Origin: an uncultured euryarchaeote
GTDB lineage: Archaea; Thermoplasmatota; Poseidoniia; Poseidoniales; Poseidoniaceae
Assembly (NCBI GenBank): GCA_937894115.1
Contig: CALBFP010000066.1
Location: 1 to 50,223 of the forward strand
DNA: 50,223 nt
Direction: 5' to 3'
Positions 6,914 to 46,478 of this stretch are shown here, piece after piece. A model generated the notes under the pieces. The model was not told the origin of the DNA. It worked only from the letters and a program-made list of their open reading frames with translations, and ran no database searches. Made by a program: the position numbers and the translations under genes. Numbering within the stretch: the first letter of the stretch is position 1; each line of letters begins with the position of its first letter.

Positions 6914-7498
6914 ATGGTTGGCTTGAATGTCATTGTATTGGCAGCCGGTCGTTCTTCTCGCCTTGGTCAGCCAAAGGCCTTCGTAGAAGTTGGTGGACGG
7001 CCCTTGATCGAACATTTAGTTCATCGATTGCAGCATTTGCAAGGAGTTGAAATTACAGTGGTCACCAACGACGATCTCCTCGCCGATGTTCTTCTTGCAT
7101 GTCCGTCCGTACATGCAGTGTTGAATCCAAACCCTGAACAAGGGCGAACAGGTTCGATTCAAACCGGCCTTGCTAGCATATCTGAACGAGGTGGTGGCCT
7201 GCCCAAACATTTGCTTGTTGTTCCGGTGGATCGTCCAGGTTGGAGCATCGAAATCGTGAACAAATTGATCGAATCGAAAAAGACTGCGTGTCCTGAATCG
7301 GAGGGCAGGGGCGGTCATCCATTGTACCTCGTTGGTGAAGACATCACTGCCGTGTATCTCTCAAAAAGCGATGAACCGCTCTCTTCAATCGTTCAACGGC
7401 ATCAAATACCTGTTGATTTCAAGTGGCTCCATTTGAACATCGACACTGTGGCCGATTTGGATGAACTCAAGTTCGCCTCAACAGAAGATTGGTTCTAG
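6914..7498 (+). CDS. MobA-like NTP transferase (molybdenum cofactor cytidylyl/guanylyltransferase)
   Basis: 194-residue nucleotidyltransferase with the N-terminal motif LAAGRSSRLGQPKAF (about residues 7-21), diagnostic of the MobA/MocA group, and the metal-site VVPVDRPG segment in the middle. Such enzymes attach CMP or GMP to molybdopterin. The ATG at 6914 begins right before the first strand; the frame is open to 6872, but that part has no family similarity. The gene directly precedes xdhC, the classic pairing for maturation of xanthine dehydrogenase-family enzymes, so MocA-type cytidylylation for the hydroxylase at 16.3-20.7 kb is the likely role. I infer this from context. Confidence 0.82.
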   Translation: MVGLNVIVLAAGRSSRLGQPKAFVEVGGRPLIEHLVHRLQHLQGVEITVVTNDDLLADVLLACPSVHAVLNPNPEQGRTGSIQTGLASISERGGGLPKHLLVVPVDRPGWSIEIVNKLIESKKTACPESEGRGGHPLYLVGEDITAVYLSKSDEPLSSIVQRHQIPVDFKWLHLNIDTVADLDELKFASTEDWF

Positions 7499-7534
7499 GG
7501 CAAATGGTATTTGTAGGGTCTTCAAGGGATTGTT

Positions 7535-8401
7535 ATGACGGCAAGAGTTTTGACATGGATGTTGGAACAATTGCGTCTTAATTCTCCAATTGTTCTTGCA
7601 ACTGTTGTTGAAGCGAAGGGCAGTGTTCCTGGGAAAACAGGGGCTCGTCTCGCAATGAATCGATACGAAGAGTGGGTCGGAACCGTTGGAGGCGCAGGTT
7701 TGGAGCATCGCGTCCTCAATCGCTGTAAGGAAATGATTCAAGAAAACAAAGCGACATCTGAAGTCCACACTTTTGGACTCAATAAAGGGGCGAAGGGCTA
7801 TGAAGTACAACCGTTGGACTCTCTTTGTGGTGGCCGAGTCACCATTTCATTGGAGTTGATGTTGCCCATGCCGCATGTACTATTGATGGGCGGTGGCCAC
7901 TGTTCAGAAGCAATCACAAAACTGCTTCCAACAAAAGGTTGGAGTTATTCTGTTCAAGATACTCGCAAAGAGTTCACAACAAACGAACTCTATCCAGATG
8001 CAATCGAACGCCATCATTCAACGGTTGAATCCTTTTTTTCTAACGAGTCGGCAGAGACGATGACTCGTTTTTCAGATGTCCTACTGCTCGGACACGATTA
8101 TTCTGAAGATCTTGAGCGTCTTCAACGGCTCCTCCACCTTGCAGAATCTGCAAACCTTCCATTGGATGGAAAGGCCTTTCCTCGAATTGGTGCTATTGGA
8201 AGTCGCACAAAGTGGAATTCCTTCTCAAAATCGTGCATTGAGGCAGGAATTCAAGCATCAATACTTGGGGATGTACGTTGCCCAATTGGATTGAATATCG
8301 GAGCAGAATCTCCTGAAGAAATTGCAATTGCCGTCATCGCCGAAATTTTATCCATGCACAAAAACGTGGATGTTCATGCTCCAAATTGGCGAGATCGATG
8401 A
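7535..8401 (+). CDS. xdhC: XdhC/CoxI-family maturation factor
   Basis: 288 residues. XdhC proteins bind the molybdenum cofactor, protect it during sulfuration and insert it into xanthine dehydrogenase-family apoenzymes. The N-terminal domain has VEAKGSVPGKTGARLAM and the Gly-rich TVGGAGLEH. The C-terminal Rossmann-like domain has MGGGHCSEA near residue 118 and ends with the family hallmark IGSRTKW, then DVRCPIGLNIGAESPEEIAIAV. It has an AAGGGA ribosome binding site and follows the MobA-like gene by 36 bases. Together they imply that an active molybdenum hydroxylase is made, most simply the one encoded 8 kb downstream. Confidence 0.88.
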   Translation: MTARVLTWMLEQLRLNSPIVLATVVEAKGSVPGKTGARLAMNRYEEWVGTVGGAGLEHRVLNRCKEMIQENKATSEVHTFGLNKGAKGYEVQPLDSLCGGRVTISLELMLPMPHVLLMGGGHCSEAITKLLPTKGWSYSVQDTRKEFTTNELYPDAIERHHSTVESFFSNESAETMTRFSDVLLLGHDYSEDLERLQRLLHLAESANLPLDGKAFPRIGAIGSRTKWNSFSKSCIEAGIQASILGDVRCPIGLNIGAESPEEIAIAVIAEILSMHKNVDVHAPNWRDR

Positions 8402-8410
8402 GGTCTCTGA

Positions 8411-9493
8411 ATGGTATCAATGAACGAGTCTTGGCGCATGCGGAATGGGTTGAAAATCCCAAACCGGAGTGTTCTCGCTGCAATGACAAACAAACAAAGT
8501 CATGCTGATGGCACGCTCTCCGAAGAAGAGATTGCTTTTCTCATCCGACGCGCAATAGGCGGATTTGGCATCATAACAACTGCAGCCTCGCACGTCCAAC
8601 AATCGGGCCAAGGTTGGGAAGGTGAACTCGGTGTGTGGAGCGACCATCACCTCCCAGGATTAACCAATTTAGCAACCAAATTGAATGAACTTGGTGCACG
8701 ATCGTTCGTTCAAATTTTTCATGGAGGTATGCGCGCACCATCAGACATTACTGGCCAACAACCTTGTTCTGCGAGTGAAACCTTCATCTCCGAAAAAGAG
8801 GGTTTTTCAAGAGAACTTTCAACGCAAGAAGTTGAAGATACAATCCATGCATTTGTTGAAGCTGCAAAACGTTGCGAATCAGCGGGCTTCGATGGTATTG
8901 AATTGCATGGAGCTCATGGCTATTTGATAGCACAATTTCTTGGTTCAAACACCAATCGTCGAAACGATCAATTCGGAGGGGGGTTGAATGAAAGGTGCAC
9001 GTTTTTACTGAAAATCATTCGAGGAATTCGTGCTATTGTGGACCCCAATTTTGCCATCATGGTCCGGCTTTCACCCGTTTCAGAGGAAATTGGCATTACA
9101 CTTGATGACACCAAGCATGTCATTGAATTGCTGGTTAAAGAAGAGATCGATGCACTTCACATCTCCTGCTGGGATGTGTTTGAGGAGCAGCAAAACAGCC
9201 GAACCATTACCGAAGAACTCTGTTCCGTCTATTCCGAATCCATTCCAATTGTATCGACTGGATCGGTTTGGAGCGCAAAGGACGCACAATTTGTTCTCGA
9301 TCAAGGGGCACAAGCGGTCGGAGTCGCTCGTGTAGCATTACCGCATCCCGATTGGGCTTTTCTCGTCAACGATCCCACATACAACCCTTCTCGACCGCCA
9401 TTCGCTCCAGAAGAACTTTTGACGGCTCAACTCAGTCCAACCTTTGTTGACTATATGCGTCGCTGGAAGGGCTTTGTCACGGACGGTCGATGA
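8411..9493 (+). CDS. Old Yellow Enzyme-family NADH:flavin oxidoreductase
   Basis: 360-residue FMN TIM barrel. Family features are the N-terminal LKIPNRSVLAAMTN, the VQIFHGG strand near residue 100, and ELHGAHGYLIAQFL near residue 163 holding the H-x2-H pair that binds the substrate carbonyl. The phosphate-binding end STGSVWS lies near residue 280. It lacks the FeS/Rossmann extension of 2,4-dienoyl-CoA reductases, so it is a compact ene-reductase type that would reduce an activated C=C bond with NAD(P)H. GAGGT lies 6 bases before the ATG, right at the end of xdhC, so it is likely cotranscribed with it. Its 3' end overlaps the convergent orn by 17 bases. Confidence 0.87.
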   Translation: MVSMNESWRMRNGLKIPNRSVLAAMTNKQSHADGTLSEEEIAFLIRRAIGGFGIITTAASHVQQSGQGWEGELGVWSDHHLPGLTNLATKLNELGARSFVQIFHGGMRAPSDITGQQPCSASETFISEKEGFSRELSTQEVEDTIHAFVEAAKRCESAGFDGIELHGAHGYLIAQFLGSNTNRRNDQFGGGLNERCTFLLKIIRGIRAIVDPNFAIMVRLSPVSEEIGITLDDTKHVIELLVKEEIDALHISCWDVFEEQQNSRTITEELCSVYSESIPIVSTGSVWSAKDAQFVLDQGAQAVGVARVALPHPDWAFLVNDPTYNPSRPPFAPEELLTAQLSPTFVDYMRRWKGFVTDGR

Positions 9494-13100: not shown

Positions 13101-14105
13101 CAGTGAAGCCGGCTTGAAGGGTCCAAGGATGAGATTTAATTGCGCGACACTTGCGACGAACATCGAAAGCACGACAGCACCGATCATGAAAAACGACATT
13201 TTCTCTGCTAGGCTTTGTTTTATGCGTTCGTTGCCAGCAAGAGATCCTTGAATGATGACGATGTAAACCAAGAGAGAGAGCGCTCCACCCTCTCCACCGG
13301 CAGGAGCGTTTTCGTTGAGGATTTCATACACGAGTGGAATTATACCCGATACGACACTGACGACAGCAAAATTGATCGATTTGTTCGACATCAACGCACT
13401 GTACATCGAAAGACCACAAAGACTGACAATCGATATCCCCAGTTCGTAAGAGACCTCATGGTTGGAATACTCAATCCATCTTCCGACTCCAACAAGCACC
13501 AACGCGAGCGGTATGTAGGTTGCAACAGCCCATCCAAAAGCTGTATTGCCTTTGTACCGATCGAGCAATCGCCGGTGAATGAACCACATAGCGACTGCAC
13601 CCGAGGCTTGGGCGTAAATCATGTTCGGGCCTGGCGTGAACTCATTTCCGGTGTTGCTGCCCATAAAATCCAGACCTCCAATTTCTTGGAGAGAAAAATA
13701 ACCGCCAAGATAGCGAATACCCCAAAGGGTCCCAACAGCCATGAAAAAGAACGCAAGACCGAGGAGATAATTTTGTGAAATCATGAGATGGTAGTCGTTC
13801 TTCTTGGCTTGCAATTCGACCATGAAAAGGGCAATAGCGGAAGAAATAAGGCCGCCGATGAAGAGAATGATGTACCGTTCTTCTCCACCCTCAGAATATG
13901 CGATTCCAATGAGGCCTGACCAAATCGCAATCATCGCCACACCAAACATGATGATTTCAGCAAAGCGTTCAAGTGAATCTCCCTTGGTATCCCCGGGTGC
14001 TCGGACTATGATGGGTTCGAACGGTATTTCTTCTTCCTCTTTGGCGTAAATGGCGTCTTTGGCTATCGATACCGTTTGTCTGACCTTCCTCTTTGGTGCG
14101 GGCAT
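10137..14105 (-). CDS. Giant polytopic membrane protein (1322 residues) of unknown function
   Basis: Not recognised. After a basic/acidic cytosolic N-terminus of about 45 residues I count roughly 36 hydrophobic segments up to about residue 1150, many paired with short loops. A soluble C-terminal region follows, very rich in Glu/Asp/Ser, and ends in a small basic-acidic domain. No catalytic motif, ATPase or transporter signature stands out. The repetitive spacing of helices suggests growth by internal duplication. It is divergent from the subtilase gene and preceded by a good TATA element at 14131-14140. It might be a membrane scaffold or a transporter of a new family; I cannot choose. Confidence 0.85.
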   Translation of the reverse strand: MPAPKRKVRQTVSIAKDAIYAKEEEEIPFEPIIVRAPGDTKGDSLERFAEIIMFGVAMIAIWSGLIGIAYSEGGEERYIILFIGGLISSAIALFMVELQAKKNDYHLMISQNYLLGLAFFFMAVGTLWGIRYLGGYFSLQEIGGLDFMGSNTGNEFTPGPNMIYAQASGAVAMWFIHRRLLDRYKGNTAFGWAVATYIPLALVLVGVGRWIEYSNHEVSYELGISIVSLCGLSMYSALMSNKSINFAVVSVVSGIIPLVYEILNENAPAGGEGGALSLLVYIVIIQGSLAGNERIKQSLAEKMSFFMIGAVVLSMFVASVAQLNLILGPFKPASLSGDAASLVTLPVALWITVLCAYFPATHKNRVPAMPIGLAFALWTLTGDGAIIPWILSLIMISYMLFKAEATRRWVADLTVSALSFSYLLSDRMGDIDGVVFGITQPEMALTVAMGIVVISETARRLEKISTWSSAQSVLLIALSSTILEGYWFAPWIFIIYLLGMVYESMLNARNGGEIERRNSTIALVTALIVSSGLLLLEKLEIPDSYQIAELNGLSLEYVLLGVIVYILFNTVRDVELDLGLLLGLLENKASGSYKYDAETNAWMQKDQDENELNLQDRSFGSIGRISLAFSLLTITIGISTLDSQTVVDNYWVIGLYMIPIGMLFWEINSMDVLSSQSRMIGAVMLLIIAASSLVLMLDVRSSLEGDGLFKAGIVYDTMFLAAPIAAFVLINKRGLDREHLDRTADQVMLCVLLLIGMMDQSGGLLLVSMYVLVALIAGQYRHHGVMMLAPLSLMAFLWFDDNSIAAELLGSYYDNQAAALWFTSVSGMIVSAHMLMPIAWSIREVQTKNDAENPFPWFIPMIWFLLGAWALLPTASWLPLIACLFGLLMAWVRGDINLIPMLSIGLIFSFILGLSDGGNDVSGEVFGISMVLSGAIVYGLWVADSKGILSMNVIDEERLSGLMPYSLDAQLRVIAISCLLLSFDVANGLGMLAGGGWATYEAIQKGDKISILFLPLVDGLTLMNLIYQFEVGGEEIQTLLTGGVFFVEGAVMIYLSSKNDQIYDAKMFEWKDDEEFFNFIELMGFSGVVSALAGVVVAFGDSQTNLALFLTAAILIALAMTGFNETQQQVRWRRALGVFGSMFTLFILYLNLDGEVIYQSLSLVMMGLLALGYGFIYMERRSTYDVAEVAIPQVFGDVAPIDEIEPRTATDEPEEEAIEVKSEEKESAEEESEEVDLLEEDEEVDESEDFLEMLQKEEEPQQIENVVSNVGYVKTTEGFDVRLPKESIEKITRTIEMTPHEGFKPVVRVNMLGQIVLDFEPL

Positions 14106-14130
14106 TTGAATCGATTAACCATACTAGGAT

Positions 14131-14140
14131 TATAATATAA
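14131..14140 (-). promoter_or_regulatory. TATA-like promoter element for the giant membrane protein gene
   Basis: Read on the minus strand the site is TTATATTATA, within an A/T-only run, about 26-35 bases before the ATG at 14105. That position is where an archaeal TATA box sits for a leaderless or very short-leader transcript, consistent with the lack of a ribosome binding site at this start. The rest of the 126-base divergent region (14106-14231) shows no other convincing element for the subtilase gene. Confidence 0.5.
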
Positions 14141-14231
14141 AATAACACCCAACATTTTGGTCATTGGTAGCATTTCATGAGAAGAAATTTACACCCGAAT
14201 TGAAAGAGTTCAAACCCTAGTATTTGTTCGC

Positions 14232-16241
14232 ATGCCTATGAGCCGCTTGAAGAAGCCAACTTTTGTGCTAACAATTCTCTGTCTGGCGATGTTTATTCTA
14301 CCGACTGTTTTCGCTACAGTACCTGTCGAATCCGATCAGGAACCTGCAGAAGAAGGATGGTGGGTTGATACGACCGTTGATCGAAACGACAATGGAATCG
14401 GTGATATGGTAGAAGTGCATCAAAAACATCCACTGTTCCTTGATGAAGAAAACACTCTTCCGCTGATCATCGATTTCTCGTTTACACCTGGTGATGCTGA
14501 GATTCAAATGTTGGAGGAGAATGTCGACTACCGCCACCAATGGACTCTCAAAGGCATCGATGCTCTTGCAGGACGCATTCCTGTTGAACACATACTGGAA
14601 GCTTCCAATTTACCAGGTGTAGTCATGATTGAGCTTGATGGCCTTCTCAGCGTTACAAACGGTGACGCTGCAGTGCTTCACGGTGTTGACACTGCTTGGG
14701 CTGAAACAGGTTATGACGGTTCGGGCACGACAGTTGCAATCATTGACACTGGAATTGACGGCAACCATTCGGGTCTCGACGATCAAGACGATGACCCAGC
14801 CACGCATGACCCGAAAATCATTGGTTTCTATGACCCTGTCAACAATCCTTCGTTGAGAAACGGTACCGAAGTGTTCCCCTATGACGATCAAGGCCACGGC
14901 TCTCATTGTGCAGGTACAACTGCTGGAACCGGGGCTCCAAATTACGACCACCCAGGCATGGCTCCGCAAGCCTCCCTTGTTGGAGTAAAAGTCCTCGATG
15001 CTGGTGGAAGCGGTTCTTTTGCCACAGTTATGGCGGGGATGGAGTGGACGGTTGAGAAGCGTCATCAATTCAACATCCGTGTTGCATCGATGAGTCTTGG
15101 TGGTCCTGGCGCAATTGAGTGGACTTCATCAGAAGAAGACAGTGTGAACCGTTATGCAAACACGATGGTGGAAAACGGTATTGCGCTTTTCATTGCAGCA
15201 GGTAACAACGGTGTATCCGGCCAAATCGGCACACCAGGCAGTTCAGAAGATGCGATAACGGTCGGCGCACTCGACAAGGATTCTGCTATTGCAGTTTACA
15301 GTAGCCAAGGACCAACCGAAGAAGGTCGCATTAAACCCAATTTCGCCTTTGTGGGCTCTGACGTTATGTCGGTTGCTCACAACACAGGAGACGGCTATGT
15401 TGCCTTCAGCGGAACGAGTATGGCCACTCCTGGTGCTGCCGGTGTTGCAGCCCTCATGTTGCAATCCAATCCGAAATTACGACCTTTGGAATTACGAAAC
15501 ATTATGCAGGAATCCGCAACCTATCGGCAATGCCACTACATGTTTGCAAATGAACCGTGCGCAGAAGACTTGATTCCGAAAAACCGACAAAACAACGTCT
15601 ACGGTCACGGAGAGGTCCGAGCACTTGACGCAGTTATGTGGGCTGCCGAGCTTGATTATACCTTCAACAAAGACCTCAACCTGACAGTCACAACGCCAGC
15701 AACTCTCGACAACCGTATTCATTTGATGCGAGGCGATTCCATCGAATTCGAAGCAAGTCAGGGCTTATTCAATGCACAATGGACCACAAATCACCTCAAT
15801 GACACATGGGCGGACATTCTAAATTTCCGGCAAGGTGATTCAACGGGAGAGTTGTTGCTTACGGACATCAACAAAAAACTTGAAACGATCCCAGGAGTCA
15901 ACGTCTTGGACAATCATACCATCTCGCTGCGAGCGATACAATTCGTCGACAACGCATACACGGCATCACCGCTCATGACCGTAGAAGTCATGGTCATGGA
16001 CAACAGCACAATCCCACTAAGCACCTCCTCATCCGAGGGAATCTCGACGAATGCACTGATTGGAATTTCCATTGCAGGTATTGTGGTGTTCCTCGTGGCA
16101 CTTCTGATAATATCCACCATATCAACCAAAGAAGAGGGTACGCTCGCTGGGAAGGATCTGAGGGCTTTGCTCGATTCAGAGGTCGATGACGTTGTGGATG
16201 CTGATATCACCGAAAATCCGTTTATAGATGAGGCGTCATAA
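14232..16241 (+). CDS. Secreted, membrane-anchored subtilisin-like serine protease (S8)
   Basis: 669 residues. An N-terminal signal peptide (basic start, then a hydrophobic core ending near residue 28) is followed by an inhibitor-like propeptide and a complete S8 domain. The catalytic residues are Asp172 in AIIDTGIDG, His222 in GHGSHCAG and Ser396 in SGTSMATPG, with oxyanion Asn325 in AAGNNG. A beta-rich domain follows, then a transmembrane helix around residues 612-632 and an acidic cytosolic tail, so the protease is displayed outside and tethered. It would degrade extracellular protein for a heterotrophic life. An ATG at 14238 is an equally possible start. Confidence 0.92.
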   Translation: MPMSRLKKPTFVLTILCLAMFILPTVFATVPVESDQEPAEEGWWVDTTVDRNDNGIGDMVEVHQKHPLFLDEENTLPLIIDFSFTPGDAEIQMLEENVDYRHQWTLKGIDALAGRIPVEHILEASNLPGVVMIELDGLLSVTNGDAAVLHGVDTAWAETGYDGSGTTVAIIDTGIDGNHSGLDDQDDDPATHDPKIIGFYDPVNNPSLRNGTEVFPYDDQGHGSHCAGTTAGTGAPNYDHPGMAPQASLVGVKVLDAGGSGSFATVMAGMEWTVEKRHQFNIRVASMSLGGPGAIEWTSSEEDSVNRYANTMVENGIALFIAAGNNGVSGQIGTPGSSEDAITVGALDKDSAIAVYSSQGPTEEGRIKPNFAFVGSDVMSVAHNTGDGYVAFSGTSMATPGAAGVAALMLQSNPKLRPLELRNIMQESATYRQCHYMFANEPCAEDLIPKNRQNNVYGHGEVRALDAVMWAAELDYTFNKDLNLTVTTPATLDNRIHLMRGDSIEFEASQGLFNAQWTTNHLNDTWADILNFRQGDSTGELLLTDINKKLETIPGVNVLDNHTISLRAIQFVDNAYTASPLMTVEVMVMDNSTIPLSTSSSEGISTNALIGISIAGIVVFLVALLIISTISTKEEGTLAGKDLRALLDSEVDDVVDADITENPFIDEAS

Positions 16242-43175: not shown

Positions 43176-44264
43176 ATGGGAGGAGGCGAATGGTCTCAAA
43201 TCCGCGAAGACGAGGCAGGTCTAACGGCGGTCATTGAATTCCTTTCAGCCTTCACACTGTTCCTGATGATTCTCACTGCGTTCATGTCTCTCGCACAACT
43301 TGAGATGGGGTCCAATGACACAGAAATTGATCAAGTGGACCAAGCCGTCGTTGCGGGCCTCGATCGTTTAACGGGCGGTTCGGGATGGTTCGTACCGGGA
43401 GACGGAGATGGGGGTTATGTCTACTCAAACTCAACCATGGAATGGCAACTCGAGTCGGCTGAAGTATTGCAAAATGGTCGGGTCCAAACGGGATTGATGA
43501 TTGATAATCAATTGGACATGAAGCGTGTTTCAGCCTTGTCGAACGTAACGCTCTCCAGTTTTTCTCAGGGTTTGGGATTGGATGAAGGTTTGACAGCGTT
43601 TTTGCGAATTACCGTATCGTCCTCGGAAGATGCAGATCGTGTTGGAATCCAATTGTTCGAAGGAGGAGCAAACATCAACAATGCACGCATGGCCTCGACA
43701 GCATCAAGCACGGTCCGAATGGGTACTGAACTTGTGCTGATTACCCTTGAAGTTCACGATGCGGGGAGGACCAACGAAAATCTCCTTTTGACCGAGGTTA
43801 TGGTCCGACCGGTAAGCGGCGGTCCTGAATGGATTGAGGTTTACAACGACAATGCTTTCGCTACAAGTCTTCTCGGCTGGTCCTTCAACACCACATCAAG
43901 TTCGACTTCGAACGAAGTATTGCTTCAACAAGGCATCATTAGTGGTCATTCAGTTGCGCTGTTCACGGGCTCACTTGCATCGCTTGAACAAGGCAATGCA
44001 TCGCAAATGTTTGATTTGGGTCAATATGGGTTGCTGGGAGTTGGCTCGATGAATCTCTTGGATGATGCTGCCGGAACCATCGAACTGCGGTTCACTCGGC
44101 CCGGCCAAATTAATCCTGTTACCAACGCCCAAGTCGAGTGGGGAGGAGATACGGGACGAATCCTGAATCTGAATCACGTGCTCGTTTGGGAAGGAGGAAC
44201 GTGGTCGGTGCAAGAAGACGCCACTCCGGGTGATGTGTCCGCAGGACAATCAAATGCTTCATGA
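43176..44264 (+). CDS. Pilin-like N-terminus plus lamin-tail-like domain protein
   Basis: 362 residues. A short polar leader containing EDEAG at residues 11-15 runs straight into a hydrophobic helix (LTAVIEFLSAFTLFLMIL). This resembles a class III (type IV pilin) signal cut after Gly, but with Glu at position +6 rather than +5. The ectodomain ends with a lamin-tail-like domain, LTEVMVRPVSGGPEWIEVYN near residue 210, extending to a WEGGTW strand near 345. It is surface exposed and perhaps polymerised or anchored. It is divergent from the large secreted protein gene and 29 bases ahead of the KaiC-like trio. Function unknown. Confidence 0.75.
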   Translation: MGGGEWSQIREDEAGLTAVIEFLSAFTLFLMILTAFMSLAQLEMGSNDTEIDQVDQAVVAGLDRLTGGSGWFVPGDGDGGYVYSNSTMEWQLESAEVLQNGRVQTGLMIDNQLDMKRVSALSNVTLSSFSQGLGLDEGLTAFLRITVSSSEDADRVGIQLFEGGANINNARMASTASSTVRMGTELVLITLEVHDAGRTNENLLLTEVMVRPVSGGPEWIEVYNDNAFATSLLGWSFNTTSSSTSNEVLLQQGIISGHSVALFTGSLASLEQGNASQMFDLGQYGLLGVGSMNLLDDAAGTIELRFTRPGQINPVTNAQVEWGGDTGRILNLNHVLVWEGGTWSVQEDATPGDVSAGQSNAS

Positions 44265-44293: not shown

Positions 44294-45076
44294 GTGCAAG
44301 CCGCATCGACATATTCCCGAGACCGCTGTGTTACAGGCATTCACGGTCTTGACGAAATTCTCCGTGGTGGAATCCCATACGGCTCCACCGTTTTGGCATC
44401 TGGAACATGTGGCTCTGGGAAGACAACCTTGGGAATGGAATTTCTTGTTCGAGGTGCATTGGCAGGTGAAGCTTGTGCACACTTTACAGCAACTGAACCT
44501 TCTGTGAAGTTGCTGGAAAACATCCGACAGTATGCATTCTTTGACATGAACATGGTCGATACGGGTTTAATCAACGTCTTTGACATGGATGTCCTCTATT
44601 CATGGCTTGGATTGGACAAGTCTACCTTCGACTTGGACGATGTTCACGCACTGATTAAATCGATTACAGACATTGTCAATACCATCGGTGTAACTCGACT
44701 TGTCATCGATTCGGTTACAACATTGTGTTACAAGATCAAGTCCGAACAGTTGATTCGTGACTTCCTTTTCACTCTTGGGAAGAAACTCGCCACTCTTGGA
44801 TGTACAACGATTCTTATCTCTGAAATCACTTCTGCAACAGAAAACGCACATTGGTCTTCTTTTGGTGTTGAAGAAGCCATTGCAGATGGCATTGTTGTTA
44901 TGGGCGATGTTGAACGTATGGGGCATTTGCTTCGATTTTTGCAGGTTGTCAAAATGCGAGGTACCGCGCACAGTCGGGCCAAGCACGCCATCGAATTGAC
45001 GCCACTGGGCGTCATGCTGACACCGATGTTGAAATGGGGCGCTCAAAGCGATAAGACTGCCAAATGGGGGAGCTGA
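44294..45076 (+). CDS. KaiC-like RecA-fold ATPase with intact P-loop
   Basis: 260 residues, a single KaiC/RAD55 domain. The start GTGIHGLDEILRGGIPYGS-type region is followed by Walker A GTCGSGKTTLG, whose Lys43 is present. Walker B is RLVIDSVTTL near residue 136. The C-terminal KMRGTAHSRAKHAIELTPLGV is the usual KaiC-like hairpin. Such archaeal proteins act in signalling and regulation rather than a circadian clock. It begins at a GTG and overlaps the ribosome binding site region of the next gene. It is the only member of the trio able to bind ATP in the normal way. Confidence 0.88.
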   Translation: MQAASTYSRDRCVTGIHGLDEILRGGIPYGSTVLASGTCGSGKTTLGMEFLVRGALAGEACAHFTATEPSVKLLENIRQYAFFDMNMVDTGLINVFDMDVLYSWLGLDKSTFDLDDVHALIKSITDIVNTIGVTRLVIDSVTTLCYKIKSEQLIRDFLFTLGKKLATLGCTTILISEITSATENAHWSSFGVEEAIADGIVVMGDVERMGHLLRFLQVVKMRGTAHSRAKHAIELTPLGVMLTPMLKWGAQSDKTAKWGS

Positions 45077-45078
45077 AA

Positions 45079-45663
45079 ATGTTCGAACTCGATCAACGAA
45101 TTGCCGAGCAACTCTCGACCATTTCATTGAACAGTTCCGTTCAAGTCCGCTGTGGAAATTCAAATGCTTTCATGGTCACGGCAAGTACCATGTTGCCGTT
45201 GATGCAGATGTTTGAGATGGGAGGAGTGTACATCTCCGCAAGTCGAGGTGCGGTTGAAATCATACAGGCGTTCGAATCGATCGGTGTCGATGTCTCAAAC
45301 ATTCAGTTCATTGATTTGGTCTCATCAGGTATCCTCGGTGGTACGGATGTAACCCACCCCAACATTCACTTTGTGGACAGCCCAATCATGCTTGAATCGG
45401 TCCTCTTGCGTACGCTCTATATTCTTCGTACGACTCACACACCCAGAAACTTCGTGTTTCTTGACAGTGTGAACGCTCTGGCCATCTACAACGAAGACCG
45501 AATGCTTGCAGAGTACCTTCACACCTTCATCAACACCTTCAGACAGCGTGAGGTTCTTTCCGTTATTCTCAACGTTCCGGACCAGACTCCGCCTCTGGTT
45601 CTTTCGAATCTTGATTTGTATTGTACGGATTTGGTCGACCGTGGCCAGGTGGTCATTCACTGA
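45079..45663 (+). CDS. Degenerate KaiC-like (RecA-fold) protein without P-loop
   Basis: 194 residues from the ATG at 45079, with GGGGGAG upstream; an ATG at 45064 would overlap the previous gene. The order of strands fits a KaiC domain, including a Walker-B-like FVFLDSVNALAIYN near residue 124 and a VLSVILNVPD strand. Where the P-loop should be there is VRCGNSNAFMV, lacking the Lys-Ser/Thr. It should not hydrolyse ATP, and may be a structural or regulatory partner of the intact KaiC-like protein 2 bases upstream. Confidence 0.75.
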   Translation: MFELDQRIAEQLSTISLNSSVQVRCGNSNAFMVTASTMLPLMQMFEMGGVYISASRGAVEIIQAFESIGVDVSNIQFIDLVSSGILGGTDVTHPNIHFVDSPIMLESVLLRTLYILRTTHTPRNFVFLDSVNALAIYNEDRMLAEYLHTFINTFRQREVLSVILNVPDQTPPLVLSNLDLYCTDLVDRGQVVIH

Positions 45664-45674
45664 GGGGATAACGC

Positions 45675-46478
45675 ATGCGAAAGAACATCAAATTCGATGA
45701 GGAAGACGAAGAATTCTTCGGGCAAGTCGGCTCTTTCGGCGTGCCAAAGTTCGACAACGAAATGCACGGTGGCGTGCCTCGAGGTTTTACCATGGTTGCT
45801 TTTACTGAGACCGGTTCAGGAGCTGAATTGTTTGCGAAACAGTTTATCTCTCCTGCTGAGGAATCGGAGAACACATTGTACATTTCGACCAACGAAGCGC
45901 AACCCGAAATCGTTCGCGTGTTCAAAAAATACGGTTGGCCGTTGGATGTAAGCGTGCGAACAATAGGCGAGGAATACAACGCCAACGTTTTGGAAAGGGA
46001 ACTTCTTGCCAGTCGATATCGGTTGGAAGGCTTTCGATTGGAAGACATTCAACGTCTTGCTCAAACACGATTTGTTGAGGATTCCACTCAGGATTATTTG
46101 ACCGAGGTAACCAATGAAATTATGGCGCTTGGGCCTTATTTTAGGGCCGGTATTGACAGTTTGGATTTCTTCCTCCAACGCGACGATCCCGGTCGTGTTG
46201 TTGCCATGATTCGTATGCTGCAAGCCCACACTCAAATGTACCGAGGATTGCTTCTCATCATGGTGTCTGTCAACGGATTGTCAGCCTCTATACGTCAAGA
46301 ATTATCCAGCATCGCAGACATGGTTCTAACCTTTGGTGTTCGAACCGTAGGTTCTGATTTTGAGACGTCGATGATCGTCTCTAAATTTCGAAATGCTCCT
46401 GAAAATCTGAAAATGCTTGTGTTCCGTGTCACGCCTGAAGAGGGCATCACACCAGAAACCGTGGAACGTATCGCTTGA
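45675..46478 (+). CDS. Degenerate KaiC-like protein with P-loop changed to GSGAE
   Basis: 267 residues. The N-terminal GVPKFDNEMHGGVPRGFTMV matches the KaiC start (G-x-D-x-L-x-G-G-x-P-x-G). The P-loop that should read GSGKT is ETGSGAELFAKQF at residues 45-57, so the catalytic Lys is Ala and the next residue Glu. The later half has a FFLQRDDPGR strand and a MVSVNG sensor-like strand. A helical insert lies near residues 110-140. GAGGGG precedes the ATG. Third of three tandem paralogues; it is presumably inactive as an ATPase. Confidence 0.78.
   Translation: MRKNIKFDEEDEEFFGQVGSFGVPKFDNEMHGGVPRGFTMVAFTETGSGAELFAKQFISPAEESENTLYISTNEAQPEIVRVFKKYGWPLDVSVRTIGEEYNANVLERELLASRYRLEGFRLEDIQRLAQTRFVEDSTQDYLTEVTNEIMALGPYFRAGIDSLDFFLQRDDPGRVVAMIRMLQAHTQMYRGLLLIMVSVNGLSASIRQELSSIADMVLTFGVRTVGSDFETSMIVSKFRNAPENLKMLVFRVTPEEGITPETVERIA

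Follow-up and report, generated by a model that had tools for sequence, protein, structure and literature searches.

What do three adjacent KaiC-like genes do when only one of them encodes an intact P-loop? This question is raised by a contig from the MAG of an uncultured euryarchaeote of the Poseidoniaceae (Poseidoniales, marine group II), from which we analysed one stretch of 50,223 nucleotides (hereafter, the window). KaiC-like proteins are common across archaea and have been proposed to act as signalling hubs; to our knowledge, almost none of them has a known partner or mechanism.

Three KaiC-type genes and their catalytic elements

As the initial annotation had described, the region at 44294-46478 of the window carries three tandem KaiC-like genes, which Pfam and fold evidence bear out as three plus-strand ORFs arranged head to tail:

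44294..45076, + strand: gene 1, member of the KaiC family whose Walker A motif is intact; GTG start; matches Pfam KaiC
45079..45663, + strand: gene 2, P-loop-less protein of RecA/KaiC fold; 194 aa from a conserved Met
45675..46478, + strand: gene 3, KaiC-fold protein with a Walker A of the form GSG[x]E; trans K-x-[RK]-N motif present

As called mechanically, the gene 2 ORF begins at 45064, before gene 1 has ended; the Met that is conserved in relatives lies at 45079, and with this start the spacing originally given, 2 bases between genes 1 and 2 and 11 bases between genes 2 and 3, holds. The P-loop states also stood, namely GTCGSGKTT in gene 1, none in gene 2, and GSGAE in gene 3.

The gene 1 protein scored 177.6 bits against Pfam KaiC (PF06745; gathering cut-off, 26.6) and is a family member with intact Walker A (GTCGSGKTT) and Walker B (LVIDS) motifs. 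Furthermore, it carries a trans motif, K-M-R-G-T-x-H, of which KMRGTAH was aligned to K224-L-R226-G-T-S-H230 of KaiC, residues that in KaiC touch the ATP of the adjacent subunit. GKT was invariant in all 53 distinct Poseidoniales sequences, and GKT and IDS were both conserved in 40 sequences from across the phylum. The gene had been called active, which is correct for the P-loop, but only one of the two carboxylates of KaiC is kept: among the 40 phylum-wide sequences, the E78 position was retained in 37, whereas the E77 position was Thr in 34. Because of this Thr, ATP hydrolysis by gene 1 is not assured. Within Poseidoniales, gene 1 was the slowest-evolving of the three (77-99% identity), followed by gene 2 and then gene 3.

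The gene 3 protein also belongs to the KaiC family (62.1 bits against the same cut-off), and its comparison with gene 1 by hhalign gave 96.7%. Both the Lys and the Thr of the P-loop were replaced, the latter by Glu or Asp, in all 57 distinct Poseidoniales sequences. The signature of gene 3 is GSG-x-E-[LI]-[LF]-A-K-Q. Across 79 loci from named genomes, no intact GK[ST] was found in gene 3, and Glu or Asp occupied the Thr position in essentially all. Retention of the Lys was confined to certain lineages, chiefly marine group III, in which gene 3 reads SGKE or AGKE (loci L125, L127, L147, and L148), with the Thr already Glu. Judged from these sequences, the Thr-to-Glu change may precede loss of the Lys, and marine group III could represent an intermediate. 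The trans motif K-x-[RK]-N of gene 3 was aligned to KMRG of gene 1, with K in 30 of 30 sequences and R or K likewise in 30 of 30. An AlphaFold2 model of gene 3 (pLDDT 90) was matched by Foldseek to KaiC, FlaH, and SSO2452.

Gene 2, at 23.1 bits, fell below the Pfam KaiC cut-off of 26.6 and is not assigned to the family by this profile. Its profile comparison with gene 1 was weak, and a sequence search of the PDB returned no match; structure prediction was therefore used to assess the fold. The AlphaFold2 model (pLDDT 89, pTM 0.87) best matched the RecA-superfamily ATPase PH0284 in Foldseek (E 5e-7, TMq 0.69, probability 1.00) and also matched FlaH (TMq 0.64, probability 1.00). Gene 2 is thus predicted to be a RecA-fold protein, though sequence profiles barely show it. 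It had no P-loop in any of 58 distinct Poseidoniales sequences (one row containing an assembly gap), and it ends ahead of the trans-motif region.

Taken over all distinct Poseidoniales and phylum-wide sequences, a functional P-loop (GK[ST]) was absent from genes 2 and 3. Gene 1 therefore holds both cis and trans catalytic elements, gene 3 the trans element only, and gene 2 neither; such an unequal split of the catalytic parts among subunits is as expected of a mixed ring.

Conservation of the trio in Poseidoniales and across Thermoplasmatota

Among 146 Poseidoniales genomes, gene 1 was found in 87 (counting close orthologues only), gene 2 in 86, and gene 3 in 85. With families named by comparison with published surveys (PMC6461757, PMC6336850), the trio was present in all sampled Poseidoniaceae genera and in the Thalassarchaeaceae genera g14, g16, g18, and g21, and missing from all others. 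Each of the three genes gave a pN of 0.01-0.05 and a pS of 0.62-0.74 in the closest pairs within the genus; pN lying so far below pS indicates that genes 1, 2, and 3 are all maintained, under strong purifying selection. As the trio was also single-copy and contiguous in nearly all Poseidoniales genomes having it, it is not a chance arrangement, and the fixation of the P-loop losses across the order indicates that they do not reflect recent decay.

Phylum-wide, the gene 2 profile matched 141 of 293 Thermoplasmatota genomes, and 28 of the 40 gene 2 loci that were read had the trio together in the order 1-2-3; neighbouring trio genes in Thermoplasmatota loci often overlap by 4-8 bases. When one genome per species was scanned, 282 gene 3 relatives emerged, of which the best 80 came from Thermoplasmatota-type records, save one MAG titled Neomarinimicrobiota, which was taken as mislabelled; since inspection covered these best 80 of 282, restriction of the trio to the phylum is not proven. 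Gene 3 was recovered at 79 loci from this set, and a full trio was present at 74, in the same order at 73 and tightly packed at 69. The genes are hence not scattered, the P-loop losses are common to relatives, and no relative had three intact P-loops. These data support the proposal of the initial annotation that one ATPase is accompanied by two inactive paralogues, with their physical complex as a presumption.

The trio occurs in Aciduliprofundum, marine group III, and Methanomassiliicoccales bins, and gene 3 of locus L131 was 97-98% identical to records of Aciduliprofundum sp. The presence of the trio in this cultivable genus makes it testable, and a fixed operon carrying its own inactive partners would be a ready-made complex for purification. 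The methanogen-like families f30, f37, and f38 had genes 1 and 2 with no gene 3 detected, indicating that gene 3 is not always needed.

Several loci departed from the common layout. An extra gene lies between genes 2 and 3 in L116 (3751-4875), where its product includes a MetOD1 output domain (26.0 bits; cut-off, 23.8), and in L118 (8285-9400), where the gene belongs to the same cluster. In L146 (family f31), three gene-2-like ORFs stand together at 7151-8834, and a gene 1/gene 3 pair lies about 5 kb away at 13264-14849; judging by this layout, the module appears rearranged, with gene 2 multiplied.

Neighbouring genes and co-distribution with pilus genes

Upstream of the trio, the window contains two genes for putative surface proteins:

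43176..44264, + strand: conserved pilin-like gene, 362 aa; charged short N-terminus followed by a hydrophobic helix
40100..43084, - strand: large surface protein of 994 aa with a membrane segment at its C-terminus; transcribed divergently

The helix near the N-terminus of the pilin-like protein is conserved as DE-x-GLTAVIEFLSAFxLFLMILTAF, and its head has a sub-threshold similarity to the lamin-tail domain, for which the relative in L118 exceeds the cut-off. Pfam returned no match to PF07790 (Pilin_N), leaving the protein outside the type IV pilins so defined, and a PDB search gave a chance match only. The gene is probably in the same operon as the trio. The 994-aa protein matched no Pfam family and is fast-evolving, with 25-39% identity between genera.

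The divergent surface protein, the pilin-like gene, and genes 1-2-3 form a conserved block in both Poseidoniales families. Of the neighbours named originally, the pilin-like gene therefore proved to be a conserved partner, whereas the UbiE-like methyltransferase follows the trio only in Poseidoniaceae and, in some genera, has the reverse orientation. The methyltransferase and the V-ATPase were both rejected as partners, being neighbours in Poseidoniaceae only.

Pilin-like genes recur next to the trio elsewhere. One lies upstream not only in both Poseidoniales families but also in L118 and L119, and in L122, L133, and L139 a type IV pilin (PF07790) comes after gene 2 or gene 3. Genes of the same cluster as these pilins follow the module in L124, L128, and L136. 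Five of these six loci share one syntenic block, so that the pilin link amounts to perhaps three independent occurrences. Most loci outside Poseidoniales have no nearby pilus gene, for example those of Aciduliprofundum (L130 and L131).

Elsewhere in the same genome, contig C1 carries a pilus-type locus. It encodes a secretion ATPase of 508 aa together with two membrane proteins, one of them a T2SSF protein, and a pair of small proteins with weak matches to DUF7261 and DUF7262. This C1-type ATPase was present in 16 of 73 Thalassarchaeaceae genomes. Of these 16, 15 also had the trio, counted as gene 1 at least, compared with none of the 57 genomes lacking the ATPase; the pattern was counted ignoring kinship and could be a single co-loss. 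Across the phylum, the T2SSF platform protein was detected in 138 of 141 genomes having gene 2, and gene 2 in 3 of 66 genomes without T2SSF (Fisher 5e-18, kinship ignored). Similarly, the C1-type ATPase (E < 1e-120) occurred in about 81 of the 88 gene 2 genomes outside Poseidoniales. The ATPase was present without the trio in family f5 and most of f11; the distribution of the trio is thus nested within that of one type IV pilus ATPase clade.

A putative switch of pilus assembly and the rival explanations

The pilin-like neighbours, together with the distribution nested in a pilus ATPase clade, point to a pilus regulator resembling ArlH. ArlH (FlaH) resembles KaiC and regulates ArlI, the ATPase of the archaellum, which is itself a member of the type IV filament ATPase family. 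ArlH is a single protein of the archaellum operon with an intact P-loop; it autophosphorylates, and it binds ATP but does not hydrolyse it (PMC8978795). The trio proteins share with ArlH a single RecA/KaiC domain, the fold matches of genes 2 and 3, and the similarity in the C-terminal half of gene 3 (E 2.9e-13, 50.0 bits against the NCBIfam ArlH profile NF052589). Unlike ArlH, they are three proteins, two of them without a P-loop, and are encoded outside the archaellum locus; neither gene 3 nor gene 1 (34.3 bits) reached the NF052589 cut-off of 215.

We give an even chance to the three genes forming one heteromeric, ArlH-like assembly of KaiC type that switches type IV pilus assembly. In such an assembly, gene 1 would be the source of nucleotide-binding P-loops. 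Gene 3 would be a pseudo-ATPase subunit incapable of normal Mg-ATP binding, which would extend its K-x-[RK] finger into the site of its neighbour, and gene 2, reduced to a RecA core that lacks both the cis and the trans element, would have a structural or regulatory part. The whole would probably act as ArlH does, docking on a type IV pilus secretion ATPase or regulating the pilus system in a nucleotide-dependent manner, and pilus assembly would thereby become switchable. The physical complex, its stoichiometry, its pilus target, and its switch behaviour are what we infer, and the pilus role is our best single guess, not established. More tentatively, and at a probability that falls short of even, the trio may constitute a phylum-wide asymmetric ring of three obligatory subunits, which divide ATP binding, trans finger, and core among them and control the type IV pilus motor. 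If so, it would be related to the ArlH ring but hetero-oligomeric, with pseudo-ATPases among its own subunits. Should the trio act on pili, ArlH-type control would not be limited to the archaellum, and there may be consequences for how marine archaea of very high abundance attach to particles.

Archaeal KaiC-family proteins of arCOG01171, 01174, and 01175 have been noted near pilus genes and proposed as regulators, in a census whose portion considered here makes no mention of inactivated partners or of a Thermoplasmatota trio (PMC4858521). The haloarchaeal families DUF7090, DUF7125, and DUF7504 showed weak similarity to genes 2 and 3, all under the curated cut-offs, and a DUF7090 search of the genome studied here gave no match. 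A conserved trio with two inactive members was found in none of the descriptions consulted, which cover the archaeal KaiC survey literature incompletely; its novelty is therefore provisional.

The three genes might instead encode a heteromeric KaiC signalling complex with a target other than pili, such as transcription, metabolism, or cell shape, along lines suggested for other KaiC-like proteins of archaea, the pilin neighbours being incidental, an explanation that we find doubtful though worth serious attention. The neighbourhoods are highly variable outside Poseidoniales and the methanogen block, the gene inserted between genes 2 and 3 of L116 carries the MetOD1 output domain and has a same-cluster counterpart in L118, and CirA, a KaiC homologue of Haloferax, has a regulatory influence on motility and cell shape (PMC13286277). 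Against this explanation stand the nested distribution of the trio relative to pilus platform proteins and to a single ATPase clade, the recurrence of pilin-like neighbours, and the place of FlaH/ArlH among the closest folds of both inactive subunits.

Far less probable is an archaellum accessory role, with the trio as a second ArlH-like switch. Poseidoniales do have an archaellum locus, and the C-terminal half of gene 3 does match ArlH. Other archaellum genes had been thought absent, which does not hold for the genome as a whole: the locus lies on another contig, C142, and includes a separate ArlH, in which the P-loop (GEVGSGKS) is intact. Moreover, genera g16 and g21 have the trio and no close ArlI orthologue, whereas g13 and g20 have ArlI orthologues (approximately 70% identity) and no trio. 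The distribution of the trio does not follow the archaellum, and the partnership suggested by a similar published distribution (PMC6461757, PMC6336850) was thus broken by the ArlI search.

A clock- or timer-like KaiC system is highly improbable. Gene 1 is homologous to KaiC and resembles the CI domain of the cyanobacterial protein in its Walker A, Walker B, and K-x-R-G-T-x-H trans motif. Nevertheless, it differs from cyanobacterial KaiC in having one domain instead of the CI-CII tandem, Thr at the E77 position, and two inactive partners unable to bind ATP normally; all three proteins are single-domain and did not reach the circ_KaiC cut-off, and no KaiA- or KaiB-like gene was noticed in the listed neighbourhoods. 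Finally, the lost P-loops of genes 2 and 3 might be read as dying duplicates in recent decay, a negligible prospect that is ruled out by the same losses throughout the phylum and by the pN and pS of all three genes.

A second KaiC-like gene, with approximately 30% identity to gene 1, was observed on contig C300 (1441-2160; locus L093) of genome G000. Genes of this type had no match in Poseidoniales genomes without the trio; they occur in those that bear it and have an unusual P-loop, GASGAMKSS.
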